Assembly: GCA_903908165.1 (NCBI GenBank)
Contig: CAIVQX010000009.1
Span: forward strand, 1 to 64,000
From: an uncultured Methylococcaceae bacterium
GTDB taxonomy: Bacteria; Pseudomonadota; Gammaproteobacteria; Methylococcales; Methylomonadaceae
Reading direction: 5' to 3'
DNA length: 64,000 bases
The notes beneath the pieces were generated by a model. That model saw nothing but the letters and a program-made list of their open reading frames with translations. It was not told the DNA's origin and made no database searches. Positions 3 to 28,156 of the stretch are shown piece after piece; the first letter of the stretch is position 1; every line of letters begins with the position of its first letter. Position numbers and translations under genes: made by a program.

Positions 3-1682
3 TTGCCAAGCTTAAAATCCTATAATCCCACTACGGGTGTTATTGGTGTAAGCCCTGGTAGAGTTGTGGGTCCTGTATTACAATTGCTTCATCCCATTTT
101 GGAGCCGGACGTTCAAGTAGTATTGGAACTGAGTGACAGGAAGACCGCTGTTCAGCATCTAATGCTTGCAGTCGCTCAAGTTGCTGACTGGTTTAAATTG
201 CAGAGTGCTCGACTGGAAGGGTCCGCGAGAGAGATTATGCAGGCTACTTCCGTTATAACTACTGATCCTGCTTTGATTAAAGTAGCCTGTGAAGCTATCA
301 TCAATTGTGGATTAACGCCTGAACGAGCTATTTGGGAGGCAACGGAGGACATTGTTGCAGAGTTCAGTGTTCAAGGTGGTTTACTTTCGGAACGTATTAC
401 TGATATGTATGATATACGCAATCGGATTATACGTTTATTAACAGTTCAAGACGCACCAGATAACTTAATCTCAAACGAACCTTATATTTTAGTCGCGAGC
501 GATTTAGCCCCTGCTGATACAGTCATGTTAAATCCCCGTGATTGTCTTGCCATTGTTACCGAGAAAGGTGGGCCAACATCACATTCAGCTATTCTTGCCA
601 GATCATTGGGCATACCGGCGATTACTGGTGTGACTGAAGTAACAGCTATTGTTGATGGAACCATTGTGCTCGTAGATGGTGCGACAGGTGAGTTCATTAT
701 TAGTCCAAATGATGAGCAAAAGGATTCGGTTAGTTTTATTGCACCAATCTCATTATTTCATGGGCCTGGACGGACCTCTGATGGCTATCAAGTTCAAATT
801 TTAGCGAATATAGGCTCAGTAGCTGATGTGCCAGACGCTATTAATTTGGGTGCTGAAGGCGTGGGTCTTTTTCGAACGGAATTTTGTTTTCTTGATCGTG
901 AAGATGAGCCAAGTATTGCCGAGCAAGTAAAAGCCTACCGCGCTGTTTTTAAGTGTTTCTCTGGACGAAAAGTGGTCATTCGTACCTTGGATGCGGGCTC
1001 TGATAAGCCACTACCTTTTTTGCCTATTAGAAATGAAGCCAACCCGGCATTGGGTATTCGAGGCTATCGAACCTCTTGGCATAGTCCGGAAATTCTGTGT
1101 AATCAATTGATGGCAATTGCGCAAGCAGCGGCGGCAGAACATGCTGAGGTATGGGTAATGGCACCGATGATTGCAACAGTAGAAGAAGCTCAGGAGTTTG
1201 TGCAGAAAACCCGTGTAGCCGGACTTACAATAGCCGGTGTAATGATCGAAACACCAGCGGCTGCTATTATGGCGGATCATCTTTTTGAGCAAGTTGATTT
1301 TGTTAGCATTGGAACCAACGATTTAGCTCAATATACTTTGGCGGCCGATCGAATGTCCAGTGATCTTGCTGTGCTCAATGATCCTTGGCAACCGTCTCTT
1401 ATGCGGATGATTGAGTTGGTATGTCGAGGTGCCTCAGATTTGAAAAAGCCTGTTGGTGTCTGTGGAGAAGCTGCATCTGATCCATATTTAGCTATCGTTT
1501 TGGTCGGCTTGGGTGTGACTGCGTTATCAATGTCGGCACGGTCAATTTCTGCAGTGGGACAACTTTTGGCATCTTTGTCACTAGAGGATTGTCGTCGTGC
1601 CGCTCAAGCCGCACTTAATTCAGATAGTGCTCAAGCAGCCAGACTTGTCGTTAGAGAAAGTCTTTCCTCTGTGATTAAATAG
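3..1682 (+). CDS. ptsI: Phosphoenolpyruvate-protein phosphotransferase (PTS enzyme I family); true start may lie upstream of the window
   Basis: GVSPGRVVGPV N-terminus, phospho-His motif GGPTSHSAILARSLGIPAITG, PEP-binding GAEGVGLFRTEF, SIGTNDLAQYTLAADR. Confidence 0.9.
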   Translation: MPSLKSYNPTTGVIGVSPGRVVGPVLQLLHPILEPDVQVVLELSDRKTAVQHLMLAVAQVADWFKLQSARLEGSAREIMQATSVITTDPALIKVACEAIINCGLTPERAIWEATEDIVAEFSVQGGLLSERITDMYDIRNRIIRLLTVQDAPDNLISNEPYILVASDLAPADTVMLNPRDCLAIVTEKGGPTSHSAILARSLGIPAITGVTEVTAIVDGTIVLVDGATGEFIISPNDEQKDSVSFIAPISLFHGPGRTSDGYQVQILANIGSVADVPDAINLGAEGVGLFRTEFCFLDREDEPSIAEQVKAYRAVFKCFSGRKVVIRTLDAGSDKPLPFLPIRNEANPALGIRGYRTSWHSPEILCNQLMAIAQAAAAEHAEVWVMAPMIATVEEAQEFVQKTRVAGLTIAGVMIETPAAAIMADHLFEQVDFVSIGTNDLAQYTLAADRMSSDLAVLNDPWQPSLMRMIELVCRGASDLKKPVGVCGEAASDPYLAIVLVGLGVTALSMSARSISAVGQLLASLSLEDCRRAAQAALNSDSAQAARLVVRESLSSVIK

Positions 1683-3349: not shown

Positions 3350-4111
3350 CTAAAAAAGTTGTCGAAGATAAGAACTGTATAATTCTAATAATCCTAAAGT
3401 ACTAACAGCGACTAATCCTCCACCAATCCAGCGTTTAAAAAGTAAATCATTACGCATAATAACGTTATGTGCTTTCAGTCCTAAGAAATGACCTATGGCC
3501 GCAATCGGCAACAACTTTAGTGCGGTTAGAAAATGTAAGTCAACTGATAGTGCAACGAATGTCGTCATTTTGATGCTTACTAAGATAAACCAAAGTACAA
3601 ATAGCGTGTCTCGTAATTGTACTTTGTTAACGTTACGCATATAGACGGCTACCATTAATGGCGCTCCGGTTAACGAAATTCCGGCAATGTACCCGCCTAA
3701 AATCAACAATCCTTTATCAACCCAAACATGTTTGCTTTTTATGCCTCGGTTAAATAGCCAGTTAAATCCATAAAAAAGGGTAATTGAATATATAAGACCG
3801 TCTAGTAAAAAAACGGGTAGATTGATCAGGCCAAAAACGCCGATGATTGCGGGAGGTATAATGTAAATTAATGAGTAGCGCAAATACCCCCAGTCGACAT
3901 TATTTAAGCGGTTAAGTAGTGTTAGCCCGGAAAAAAATAGCAAATGTATACTGATCATTGGTAACCATAACAGTGGATTGTTATGCACAAACAGCATTAA
4001 TGGTAATCCTAACGCAGCACCTCCAAAGCCAAGTCCAGTGCGAACAAACCCAGTCCACATGAATATTAGAGCAATGGATGCAGTTTGGTAAAAAGAAAAA
4101 TCAAGTAGCAT
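3350..4111 (-). CDS. TauE/SafE family sulfite exporter-like membrane protein
   Basis: Polytopic membrane protein, GTGLGFGGAALGLPLMLF-like N-terminal motif and GGYIAGISLTGAPLMVAVYMRN repeat. Confidence 0.75.
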   Translation of the reverse strand: MLLDFSFYQTASIALIFMWTGFVRTGLGFGGAALGLPLMLFVHNNPLLWLPMISIHLLFFSGLTLLNRLNNVDWGYLRYSLIYIIPPAIIGVFGLINLPVFLLDGLIYSITLFYGFNWLFNRGIKSKHVWVDKGLLILGGYIAGISLTGAPLMVAVYMRNVNKVQLRDTLFVLWFILVSIKMTTFVALSVDLHFLTALKLLPIAAIGHFLGLKAHNVIMRNDLLFKRWIGGGLVAVSTLGLLELYSSYLRQLF

Positions 4112-21838: not shown

Positions 21839-23653
21839 TTAGTTCGGGGGTGTGGTATTTTGCTCAGGCAAAAATCCGCCCGCCTGCATAGTCCACATAT
21901 GATGATACAAGCCTTTCTGAGCTAATAATTGCTCGTGCTGACCATCCTCTACAATGCGGCCTTGATCAAATACTAAAATGCGATCTAAATGTGCAATCGT
22001 TGATAAGCGGTGAGCAATAACGATGACAGTCTTTCGTCCCATGGCAAGATCTAGGCTTTCTTGAATAGTTTTTTCAGTAACTGAATCCAGACTTGATGTC
22101 GCCTCATCCAAGATTAAAATAGGTGCGTCTTTTAGTAGAACACGCGCAATTGCAATTCGTTGGCGTTGCCCGCCGGATAATTTTACTCCCCGTTCACCAA
22201 CCAAAGAATCATAACCATCTGGCATTATTTTAATAAATTCATCGGCATGTGCTTGCTTTGCGGCTAGTTGAATTGCTTTATCAGATACATCTAAACGCCC
22301 ATAGCCTATGTTTTCTTTAAGGCTACGATGAAATAGACTAGGGTCTTGTGGTATCAAGCTGATTTGTTCATGAAGTGAGTCTTGCAAGATATACTGAATA
22401 TCTTCGCCATCGATGAGGATTTTTCCACCTTGTGGTTGGTAGCTACGTAACATCAGGCTTACAAAAGTCGATTTTCCAGAGCCTGAAAAACCTACCAAGC
22501 CGACTCGCTGTCCTCCTTGAATAACTACATTTAATTGATCAAATACTGGGCGTTGGGAATCATAACTAAAATTTACATTACAAAATTCAATTCTACCTTG
22601 GTTTATGGTTAAAGGTGATGCATCTGGTTTATCTACAATTTCATGAGGTTGAACAATGGTATCAACGCCATTTGCGATATTACCCACATATTCAAAAAAC
22701 TCTAAAAATCGCCGAGTTAAATTTCGCGCATCATTGATAATAAGTAATGCGAGACCGATGCTCATAGTAAAAGCACCTACAGTGATTATGTTGCTATCCC
22801 ATAGAGTTAAAGCATAATAAACTGTACTTACTTTTAGTATTGCAGCGGCAATAAATTGAAACCATCGAATGCGTTCCATATACCAAAAAGTTCGTCGCCC
22901 CGACTTAACTTCCGTCTCCAAAAAACCATCCAGATACTGCCGTTCAAAATGTAAGCGTGCAAATAGCTTGGCATTTAGACTGTTAGTTACTGCATCGACT
23001 ATTTTGCCATTAACTTGGCTACGAGTTGCTGCATAAGCTTGTGCGTATGGTTGACATCGTTTTGCTAAAAAATACGATAGGCTTACATACACAAATACCC
23101 AGCCCGCAACCATCAAACCTAACCCTTGATTTACGTTTAATAATAAAGCAATAGAAATTGTAAAAGTAACCAGAATAGGCCAAAAGTCACATAAAATAGA
23201 CCAGGCAGTATGATTGACACTCATGGCTGTTTCGCTAATTCGATGAGCTAATGCGCCGGCAAAATGACTGCCAAAATAGCGTGGCGAATGATATTGTAAA
23301 TAAGCGTATAACGCTTTTGTTGTATATTGGCGTAAGCGAGGGCCCATAATAATTAATATGGCTCCGCTAGTTCGGCTAAACACTATTTCAGCTATATTCA
23401 AGCTAACCAGTAATAATAAAGGTACTCGTAAGTTTTCTAGCAGTGGCGTCCCATTCGATTGTGCTACGCTATCCATAATTGATTTAATTGCATAGGGCAC
23501 CAAAATGTTACCTGTCGCCTGTCCGGTCTCCATAATCAACATTAAAATAATCCAACCTTTAAATCGGGCTAGACAATGCATAATGAAATGAATAGTGCCA
23601 GTGGGTAACAAAGGCGCTTCTGAAGCTCGTTGAAAATCTTTATTCTTAGGCAT
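21839..23653 (-). CDS. ABC transporter, fused permease/ATP-binding (exporter type)
   Basis: Walker A GFSGSGKST, signature LSGGQRQRIAIAR, Walker B ILILDEATSSLD, N-terminal TMs. Confidence 0.95.
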   Translation of the reverse strand: MPKNKDFQRASEAPLLPTGTIHFIMHCLARFKGWIILMLIMETGQATGNILVPYAIKSIMDSVAQSNGTPLLENLRVPLLLLVSLNIAEIVFSRTSGAILIIMGPRLRQYTTKALYAYLQYHSPRYFGSHFAGALAHRISETAMSVNHTAWSILCDFWPILVTFTISIALLLNVNQGLGLMVAGWVFVYVSLSYFLAKRCQPYAQAYAATRSQVNGKIVDAVTNSLNAKLFARLHFERQYLDGFLETEVKSGRRTFWYMERIRWFQFIAAAILKVSTVYYALTLWDSNIITVGAFTMSIGLALLIINDARNLTRRFLEFFEYVGNIANGVDTIVQPHEIVDKPDASPLTINQGRIEFCNVNFSYDSQRPVFDQLNVVIQGGQRVGLVGFSGSGKSTFVSLMLRSYQPQGGKILIDGEDIQYILQDSLHEQISLIPQDPSLFHRSLKENIGYGRLDVSDKAIQLAAKQAHADEFIKIMPDGYDSLVGERGVKLSGGQRQRIAIARVLLKDAPILILDEATSSLDSVTEKTIQESLDLAMGRKTVIVIAHRLSTIAHLDRILVFDQGRIVEDGQHEQLLAQKGLYHHMWTMQAGGFLPEQNTTPPN

Positions 23654-25285: not shown

Positions 25286-25341
25286 TTTTGTTCAGTACAA
25301 TTTTTGTCAATGTTTTGTATAGTTTTGTGCTAACATATAAT
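25286..25341 (+). promoter_or_regulatory. Putative promoter with spaced TTTTGT repeats upstream of the MerR/B12 regulator
   Basis: TTTTGT at 25286, 25302, 25313, 25323; TATAAT at 25336-25341. Confidence 0.45.
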
Positions 25342-25367: not shown

Positions 25368-26336
25368 ATGACTAGCACTAGTGATGAATCAGCTCAATAC
25401 TTAATTAAAACAGTCTCAAAAAGGTCTGGCGTTAAATCTGATCTTGTAAGAGCTTGGGAGAGACGCTATCAGGCAGTTACGCCGACCCGGACCTCTGGTG
25501 GTCATCGAATATATACCGACCAAGATATTGCTCGTTTAAAACTTCTCAATCAGGCAACTAGCAATGGTCATAGCATTAGTCAAATTGCTAGACTTTCTCT
25601 TGAAGATCTAAAAAATCTAGTAAAAAGTGAATCTGAATCAATCCCGCAGCCTCCACATATAATCCCTTCTAGTAGTGACAGGTTATATATTGCTGCGGAT
25701 TATATGGAAAAATGTTACGCCGCTGTTTTAGCTTTTGACCCTAAAGCCCTTGAGTCTCATTTTGAAAATGCAATCGTAGAGCTTGGCTCTGAGATATTTA
25801 TTGAGCACTTGCTAACACCTCTGTTAACTAGAATTGGTGAGCGTTGGAAAGCCGGGGAACTGAGACCGGTTCACGAACATATGACTTCATCTGTTATTCG
25901 TTCACTTGCTTATATTTTACGTAACAATAAACCCCGGGCAGAAAATGCGCCCAGAATGGTTGTTAGTACGCCGATTGATCAATTGCACGAGTTAGGTGCT
26001 TTACTTGCTGCCATCATGGCAGAACTTAGTGATTGGCAAGTGACTTACCTTGGGACAAATCTCCCTGCCGAAGAAATAGCTGCAGCTATTAAATATACTA
26101 ATGCCCGTGCTGTGACTCTCAGCATCAGTTTTGCTGCCAATGATCACGTTGTTGCAAAAGAACTTAGAAGACTGAGAAAATTAATTGGTCCTGATATAGC
26201 GATTATTGTTGGAGGTAGAGCCGCTGAGTATTACCAAGATATTTTAAATGAAGTCGGAGTTGTAAATATTCAAAGTTACGCCCATTTTAGACAAATTCTG
26301 GCTGAACTTGCCCTAAAGCAAGAAAACCAGAATTGA
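25368..26336 (+). CDS. MerR-family regulator with cobalamin-binding C-terminus (CarH/LitR-like)
   Basis: MerR HTH VSKRSGVKSDLVRAWERRYQAVTPTRTSGGHRIYTDQDI; WKAGELRPVHEH (Wx9EH); HELGALLAAIM; GG at IIVGGRAA. Confidence 0.9.
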   Translation: MTSTSDESAQYLIKTVSKRSGVKSDLVRAWERRYQAVTPTRTSGGHRIYTDQDIARLKLLNQATSNGHSISQIARLSLEDLKNLVKSESESIPQPPHIIPSSSDRLYIAADYMEKCYAAVLAFDPKALESHFENAIVELGSEIFIEHLLTPLLTRIGERWKAGELRPVHEHMTSSVIRSLAYILRNNKPRAENAPRMVVSTPIDQLHELGALLAAIMAELSDWQVTYLGTNLPAEEIAAAIKYTNARAVTLSISFAANDHVVAKELRRLRKLIGPDIAIIVGGRAAEYYQDILNEVGVVNIQSYAHFRQILAELALKQENQN

Positions 26337-26367: not shown

Positions 26368-26796
26368 ATGAGTTTTTGGAAAACTAAAAAATTATCTGAA
26401 ATGAGTATAGATGAATGGGAGTCACTATGTGACAATTGCGGAAAATGTTGTCTCCATAAGCTGGAAGATGAGAAGACTGAAAAAATAGTTTTTACTAATG
26501 TCGCCTGTAAGCTTATTAACCTGACTACCTGTCGATGTACAAAATATAGTAAACGAACTGAATTAGTTCCGGAATGTTTGGATTTAAGAGAGTTGGATAT
26601 TGATAGGTATGGCTGGTTGCCATCTACTTGCGCATACCGACTTCTTAATGATGACAAAGAATTACCATCATGGCATCCATTAATATCAGGAAACTCTGCC
26701 AGTGTAAAAAGGGCTGGGGTTTCAATTAACAGTTACGCTATAAAAGAATCAAATGCTATAGATTTCGAAGATCATATTATTGAATGGTTAAAATAG
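26368..26796 (+). CDS. YcgN-family cysteine-cluster protein (UPF0260)
   Basis: WESLCDNCGKCCLHKLEDE, CKLINLTTCRCTKYSKR. Confidence 0.9.
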   Translation: MSFWKTKKLSEMSIDEWESLCDNCGKCCLHKLEDEKTEKIVFTNVACKLINLTTCRCTKYSKRTELVPECLDLRELDIDRYGWLPSTCAYRLLNDDKELPSWHPLISGNSASVKRAGVSINSYAIKESNAIDFEDHIIEWLK

Positions 26797-26829: not shown

Positions 26830-27345
26830 TTAGGGTTTAAGATTAATAATCAATCCAGCGCCATCAACCGACTTTAGCTTTTCTCCTTGGGGCTCAGGTG
26901 TCATCAGAAAATCACCATCTAATTCTATATGCCGAGATTCTTTTTTTGCTTTAGTATCAAAATAATTAGCAGATTTATTTTTTTCCACCTGCTGTTGATC
27001 AAGTAATAAATCAGTACTTCCTGTGCTTCTAAAAGGTATAGATAAATCTAATATTTTTTCGATCTCGTTCTTCTCAATAGTATTATCACTAATAGGTTTT
27101 TTTATTTTTGAATCAACTTTAATTTTCTGGTGTTTGCTTTTTTCTGTGCTTTCTGACAGATTTATTTTTTTTATTCCTTGAGGTTGCTTAATTTCATAAG
27201 ACTTGGAATTGATCGTAGCTTTTTGTCTCTCCAGAACTAAAACGTCTTTTTCAACCAAATTATCAAACCCACTCAGAAATAACCATGAGCTGGTTATAAA
27301 GCTTAATAAAAATACTCGGTAAATGCTCATGTTAAATTTTACCAC
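26830..27345 (-). CDS. Hypothetical secreted/periplasmic protein
   Basis: 171-aa ORF with N-terminal hydrophobic segment; low complexity Lys/Glu rich. Confidence 0.5.
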   Translation of the reverse strand: MVKFNMSIYRVFLLSFITSSWLFLSGFDNLVEKDVLVLERQKATINSKSYEIKQPQGIKKINLSESTEKSKHQKIKVDSKIKKPISDNTIEKNEIEKILDLSIPFRSTGSTDLLLDQQQVEKNKSANYFDTKAKKESRHIELDGDFLMTPEPQGEKLKSVDGAGLIINLKP

Positions 27346-27623
27346 TCCAGTTATAGAGTACCTGAGCCACTTAAAAAACTACCAAGAATGATTAAAGCTG
27401 ACATAGGTTATTATCCCCTACGATATCACAGCAATTATTTGTTATACAAGGCGTATTTTGGTAATCAGCATCTGTTTCTTTTCAATTCAGCGTTATATTT
27501 TTAGCCTATAAATTTATAATATTTCCCAAATAACATTGAGATAAAATCGGATACTGGTAAATCTGAACGCTGTTTCTCGAAAGAAACTGGAAAAAATTCG
27601 AAGCTGATTGATACGTCAGGCAT

Positions 27624-27653
27624 AAAAAAAGCCCCGATCAGATCGGAGCCTTT
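27624..27653 (-). terminator. Intrinsic terminator for tRNA-Phe pair
   Basis: Minus strand GGCTCCGATCTGATCGGGGCTTTTTTT. Confidence 0.8.
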
Positions 27654-27661
27654 AGAATTCA

Positions 27662-27737
<76 letters not shown>

Positions 27738-27766
27738 TTTAGAAGTGTTGCTTAGTTTTTTGTAAT

Positions 27767-27842
<76 letters not shown>

Positions 27843-28156
27843 GTAACTACAAAAGACGATCATTAGACTTTATTACGTTGCTCTAGTCAATAAAAAATGT
27901 AAATTTATTCGAGTAGGGTACTCCTAAAATACTCGCTTTTCTTACCCTAAAGTTGATAACGAACTCGAAAACTTTCACTGTTGAGAATGAACTATTTAAA
28001 CTTTAGTGTTAGTCGAACTTAAAGGATTGCTATTTTCTAAAGTATAAAGGTGGAAAGCACTAGATTTAATGAGACATTTTGATATTGAACCTATAAACGA
28101 TTTGGCTTTAAAGTATGATAATATTTTCAATCAAAGTATTTTTTTAAAAGGCGAGC

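Follow-up and report, generated by a model that had tools for sequence, protein, structure and literature searches.

CarH of Thermus thermophilus (TtCarH; PDB 5c8d, 5c8e and 5c8f) has a Wx9EH motif, a lower axial His and an operator made up of three repeats with the published pattern nAnnTnnACAn (PMC8156234). In its light state a bis-His ligation is formed through His132, the residue after the Trp, and the H132A variant keeps the dark state and mostly remains tetrameric in light (PMC10442372), so that this position is important in Thermus, though it is no rule for the family. Three further receptors carry other residues at this position (Arg in CtMerR, Gln in SasPcob and Tyr in AbDPcob), and each binds AdoCbl and is responsive to green light (PMC11796333). 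CtMerR of Chloracidobacterium thermophilum (PDB 8jbs and 8jbt; WP_157850694), an AdoCbl tetramer found experimentally to be broken by light into monomers, has no bis-His ligation in the anaerobic light structure, a difference from TtCarH that has already been described (PMC11796333). The CarA/CarH lineage of Myxococcus xanthus includes members that have lost Wx9EH, among them CarA, which lacks the Trp; its targets are carotenoid genes, and the -35 element lies within the operator repeat (PMC9304148). Class II LitR proteins of Pseudomonas (PplR and PmlR) are MerR-type repressors of light-stress rather than carotenoid genes (PMC9758184), which consist of the four-helix bundle only, have a LOV partner and bind TGTACA-N12-TGTACA. 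For CarH in methanotrophs, our literature search gave only a general B12 review. Here we describe a carH/litR-like gene in a 64,000-nucleotide stretch of DNA (the window) from an uncultured Methylococcaceae bacterium. We propose, at a probability of roughly 55%, that it encodes a repressor of the CarH/LitR type, with class I architecture, that would depend on AdoCbl in the dark, be released by light and control itself, ycgN, a lipocalin operon and a sigma factor.

The gene is an intact open reading frame of 322 codons from the ATG at 25368 to an in-frame TGA at 26334-26336 (Table 1). Pfam places a MerR helix-turn-helix (HTH; MerR_1, 1e-16) before both B12 subdomains (B12-binding_2, 1e-11; B12-binding, 1e-13), unlike class II LitR, and the RxWERRY recognition helix is present as R28-A-W30-E-R-R-Y34. 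The top PDB sequence match is CarH (1e-25), well beyond a chance resemblance, and an AF2 model with a mean pLDDT of 89.8 has CarH 5c8e as its best PDB fold match (E 5e-18), the predicted B12 domain reaching a TM-score of 0.79 against CtMerR 8jbs. The best curated-family match is the narrow CarH equivalog model NF052513, at 118.4 bits and thus below its cut-off of 400 bits; hence, we use the term CarH/LitR-type and not CarH equivalog. The protein shares domain order, Wx9EH and lower His with TtCarH at 28% identity, and differs from CtMerR in the HTH sequence and at the lower-ligand motif (DQLH versus GDLH). An earlier note, made from the sequence without database searches, had named it a CarH/LitR-type B12 photoreceptor-like regulator, and family, the Wx9EH motif and predicted fold all bear this out.

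Table 1 Features of the carH locus and of the predicted sites elsewhere in the genome (window positions unless residues or a contig are given).
Feature	Position	Strand	Basis or remark
carH/litR-like gene	25368..26336	+	ORF and translation, Pfam, CarH matches in the PDB by sequence and by fold
MerR HTH	residues 11-76		carH/litR-like protein
B12-binding four-helix bundle	residues about 114-182		carH/litR-like protein
Rossmann B12-binding domain	residues about 198-297		carH/litR-like protein
W160-x9-E170-H171 codons	25845..25880	+	alignments, residue numbering
Lys161 codon	25848-25850	+	aligned with TtCarH His132
D204-Q205-L-H207-E-L-G210 codons	25977..25997	+	H207 lower axial His candidate; Gln replaces D/E of D/ExHxxG, Asp replaces Gly of GxxH
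Predicted CarH-type operator, carH-ycgN unit	25294..25324	+	three direct repeats, 11-bp spacing
Operator unit 1, AGTACAATT	25294-25302	+	
Operator unit 2, TGTCAATGT	25305-25313	+	
Operator unit 3, TGTATAGTT	25316-25324	+	
Possible -10 hexamer TATAAT	25336..25341	+	by eye, absent from consensus-scan list; just 3' of repeats
ycgN-family gene (CxxCxxCC cysteine-cluster protein)	26368..26796	+	Pfam, NCBIfam, conserved linkage
Convergent neighbour, no Pfam match	26830..27345	-	conserved synteny only; no part of proposed system
Predicted lipocalin site, own genome	C3:3931-3961		one unit TGC instead of TGT
Predicted sigma-factor site, own genome	C33:1180-1211		12-bp spacing

The host is a Methylobacter-like methanotroph with a 2.78-Mb genome, and its relatives are Methylobacter, Methylovulum, Crenothrix and further Methylococcaceae. 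Its genome is one of 31 of the 35 same-genus genomes with a single carH copy; in the other four (G010, G013, G021 and G024) carH was undetected. A BtuR/CobO adenosyltransferase is encoded in the genome, which would allow AdoCbl synthesis from a corrinoid. A search for a PduO-type adenosyltransferase found none. The ycgN-family gene follows carH after 31 bp, a linkage kept in most relatives, and the two are probably co-transcribed. G021 (locus L168, contig 147, about 3546-3576) amounts to a natural deletion of carH: the gene was not detected and its repeat-bearing promoter is immediately 5' of ycgN, which supports carH-ycgN as one transcription unit. Both neighbours named in the earlier note hold: ycgN exceeds the NCBIfam curated cut-off for two YcgN-family models, and folP has a Pfam Pterin_bind match. 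folP is not adjacent to carH in other loci and was dropped as a functional partner. By inspection of the window ORFs, there are no carotenoid or photolyase genes nearby, as had been noted. Further downstream lie two tandem tRNA-Phe genes (anticodon GAA; 27662-27842, minus strand), and a 120-aa ORF with repeated AQVAQSVEQRTENPRVDGSIPPLGT that overlaps them (27501-27863) is most likely spurious.

The predicted B12 site combines conserved residues with several departures from the described motifs. The exact Wx9EH reported before is present as W160-KAGELRPVH-E170-H171, and is followed by PIDQLHELGALLAAIM (containing Q205 and H207) and by IIVGGRAA at residues 279-286. The Thermus sequence WHRGEIGVAEEH, which the earlier note gave, is correct, and alignment with it returns the two substitutions then described, Lys161 at the upper-ligand position and Gln205 for the ExH Glu. 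Asp204 had been missed: it replaces the Gly of GxxH in the window protein only, with Gly in all 31 other orthologs compared, so that the SignatureFinder light signature has GxxW, EH and GxxxP in place and DxxH for GxxH. In the longer motif D/ExHx2G/Px41SxT/Vx22-27GG, residues H207, G210, S252 and G282-G283 are in register, with Gln205 at D/E and Ser254 at T/V (S252-I-S254 for SxT/V). GQxH occurs in the Methylococcaceae orthologs and in L066-L069, and Gln for the ExH Glu is, on these alignments, a subfamily trait. Wx9EH and the lower His are retained in 31 of 32 Methylococcaceae orthologs, the exception (L052) lacking the Trp. After the Trp position these 32 have Lys (24), Arg (5) or Ile (3) and never His. 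A comparison set of 37 other sequences that retain all of Trp, Glu, His and the lower His (36 gammaproteobacterial homologs and TtCarH) has Ala (9), Glu (5), Lys (5), Arg (4), His (3), Leu (3), Gln (3), Thr (2), Asn (1), Ser (1) and Asp (1). A His directly before EH (H169 of H169-E170-H171, 25872-25880) is found in the Methylococcaceae orthologs and L066 where TtCarH has Glu140, and is a possible alternative cobalt ligand.

In a tree of 62 homologs, built by a quick method, the protein falls in a 23-member group (SH-aLRT 99) that lies outside the main LitR group of the gammaproteobacteria and apart from TtCarH, whose placement is unsure because of its long branch. Loss of the B12 site recurs in this subfamily: the Trp is missing in L068/069, Trp and lower His are missing in L070-L075 and L079, and the B12 motifs are missing in L135 (Gemmatirosa), with the HTH still kept in several of these members. 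Among close orthologs, L052 (Candidatus Methylobacter favarea) has lost the Trp and kept the promoter repeats. The window protein keeps W160, which CarA of M. xanthus has lost. With lost beside intact B12 sites, the subfamily offers a natural series for the change from CarH to a CarA-like protein. Some B12-less members (L098, L099, L100, L101 and L102) are divergent to a fatty-acid desaturase gene, and in L098 and L100 the next gene downstream is FabA. Most of the desaturase-side intergenic regions contain TGT repeats at 11-bp steps; a membrane-lipid regulon is possible for these desaturase- and FabA-linked members. The B12-intact members L066 and L095 each lie divergent to a gene with a fasciclin domain (the second of the two was assigned by eye), and repeats resembling TTGTCnnGGACAA stand in between. 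Taken over the desaturase, FabA and fasciclin loci of the subfamily, TGT repeats at 11-bp steps were found in several intergenic regions.

Upstream of carH, the three tandem TGTnnAnnT repeats are the reverse complement of the published CarH repeat, in the same register as in TtCarH, and are predicted to form a CarH-type operator overlapping the promoter. Two strict units (TGTnnAnnT-N2-TGTnnAnnT) are present in all 32 ortholog promoters, compared with 0.12% of shuffled sequences, and three exact units in the promoters of several species. A strongly conserved block 5' of the ortholog genes reads GT..A..T.TTGTCAA.GTTTTGTA.A. In its own genome the window site is the sole exact three-unit match, and two further pattern searches again returned only 25294-25324. 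Other candidates were dropped: the one-mismatch three-unit sites of its own genome at C81 and C203 fall within genes, and a site at G003:C74 falls within a coding region. Direct repeats 11 bp apart set this arrangement apart from the sites of class II LitR.

Beyond the carH promoter, operator scans that allowed up to 3 mismatches returned largely background, but sites that recurred among the hits pointed to two extra promoters. Their shared module, TGTnCAnGTTTTGTnnAACTATnnTTTGACA (up to 3 mismatches), is found in 34 of the 35 same-genus genomes and in G035. It has no occurrence in the 25 other genomes, which comprise G036 and 24 members of other families in the order; the reversed control pattern had zero occurrences. 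All module contexts examined were either the promoter of a lipocalin operon or that of an RpoD-like alternative sigma factor, about ten sites being assigned by sequence class alone. The lipocalin operon consists of a small membrane protein and a lipocalin (Blc), and in most genomes it is divergent from a TIGR01777/ThyD-like oxidoreductase gene. Every module ends in TTGACA, usable as a -35 hexamer; the promoter would then lie beneath a bound repressor, as described in Myxococcus (PMC9304148). The carH-less genomes keep one or both extra sites, through either recent carH loss or another protein that also reads the repeats, and decay is partial (no site at L218 in G021 or L249 in G010). G015 has, on contig 2 (about 21898-23521), a second RpoD-like sigma gene copy that is interrupted by in-frame stops, with an exact repeat module kept upstream. 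None of the predicted sites examined had carotenoid or photolyase genes, in contrast to the targets of TtCarH and M. xanthus. The earlier note had expected non-standard photochemistry or non-carotenoid targets; the predicted operators favour the part on targets, whereas the part on photochemistry is not supported, since a non-His residue is routine. A literature search for a link between LitR and a lipocalin gave none in the papers it listed.

From the family, the predicted fold, the intact Trp, Glu, His and lower His, and the repeats at its own, the lipocalin and the sigma-factor promoters, we infer AdoCbl binding, an oligomeric state, a light response, DNA binding and repression. In the dark, AdoCbl would be held by W160, E170/H171 and H207 and promote assembly of an oligomer, which would bind the promoter-overlapping tandem 11-bp repeats and block RNA polymerase. 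Light would split the Co-C bond, the adenosyl group would leave, and the oligomer would disassemble and the genes switch on. Given that Lys161 occupies the position of His132, the light state is proposed to lack the bis-His ligation of TtCarH (compare Arg in CtMerR). Several observations count against this mechanism: the motif departures at Gln205, Asp204 and S252-I-S254; the B12-site losses within the subfamily; the extra sites in four carH-less genomes; the 12-bp spacing of the sigma-factor site and the TGC unit of the lipocalin site in its own genome; and the failure of TtCarH H132A, for the most part, to monomerise in light (PMC10442372).

The extra sites bear most directly on whether CarH controls carH-ycgN only and another protein reads the lipocalin and sigma promoters. 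Their persistence without carH, above all in G013 at 100% completeness, and the different variable positions at the carH promoter (TGTCAATGTTTTGTAAAG versus TGTnCATGTTTTGTnnAACT) speak for a second reader. However, the 11-bp TGTnnAnnT register known for CarH from the literature is common to all three promoters, the 24 genomes from other families in the order have neither the sites nor this ortholog, and partial decay has set in where carH is gone; we regard a separate reader as a serious possibility, if an unlikely one. Fairly unlikely, in our judgement, is a sensor of cobalamin level that would bind AdoCbl or another cobalamin and repress when B12 is plentiful, with light of little or no physiological role. 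The same binding residues fit either role, Gln205, Asp204 and Lys161 could alter photochemistry, and photolyase and carotenoid genes were found neither adjoining carH nor at the predicted sites examined. AdoCbl is itself light-sensitive, however, so even a pure B12 sensor would remain affected by light, and the Wx9EH signature of light-responsive members is intact in 31 of the 32 orthologs (PMC11796333).

That the protein no longer depends on B12, and like CarA answers another signal or an anti-repressor protein, is quite improbable. The Trp, the EH or the lower His is gone in several relatives within the subfamily that retain the HTH, and L052 kept its promoter repeats without the Trp, but the retention of Trp, Glu, His and lower His in Methylococcaceae orthologs, L066 and L067 would be unexpected for an unused site. 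Least probable of all is that Lys at the upper-ligand position gives the protein a photochemistry unlike that of other family members, as the earlier note supposed. Lys161 does replace His132 of TtCarH, but a non-His residue is the commoner state (34 of the 37 intact-motif sequences) and light-responsive receptors have Arg (CtMerR), Gln (SasPcob) or Tyr (AbDPcob) there. A position routinely occupied by residues other than His, which that note had itself named as a refuting outcome, is thus what the alignment shows, and on the family survey and the literature (PMC11796333) we reject the view of Lys161 as unusual.

What is new is the predicted regulon, the ligand "oddity" itself being ordinary. 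We put forward only tentatively the wider reading that a B12 photoreceptor of a distinct subfamily controls an RpoD-like sigma factor and a lipocalin/oxidoreductase module in methanotrophs, with a photocycle on a non-His, Gln-containing site and relatives that have repeatedly abandoned B12. If true, a sigma-factor cascade of methane oxidisers would take light (or AdoCbl supply) as its input, and it is mainly the sigma factor among the predicted targets that makes a bench test worthwhile. If the dark-repressor reading is right, Methylobacter-type methane oxidisers would detect light by way of vitamin B12 and respond with a small set of genes that can be checked, an alternative sigma factor among them. 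Methanotroph physiology would thereby be tied to B12 supply and to light exposure.
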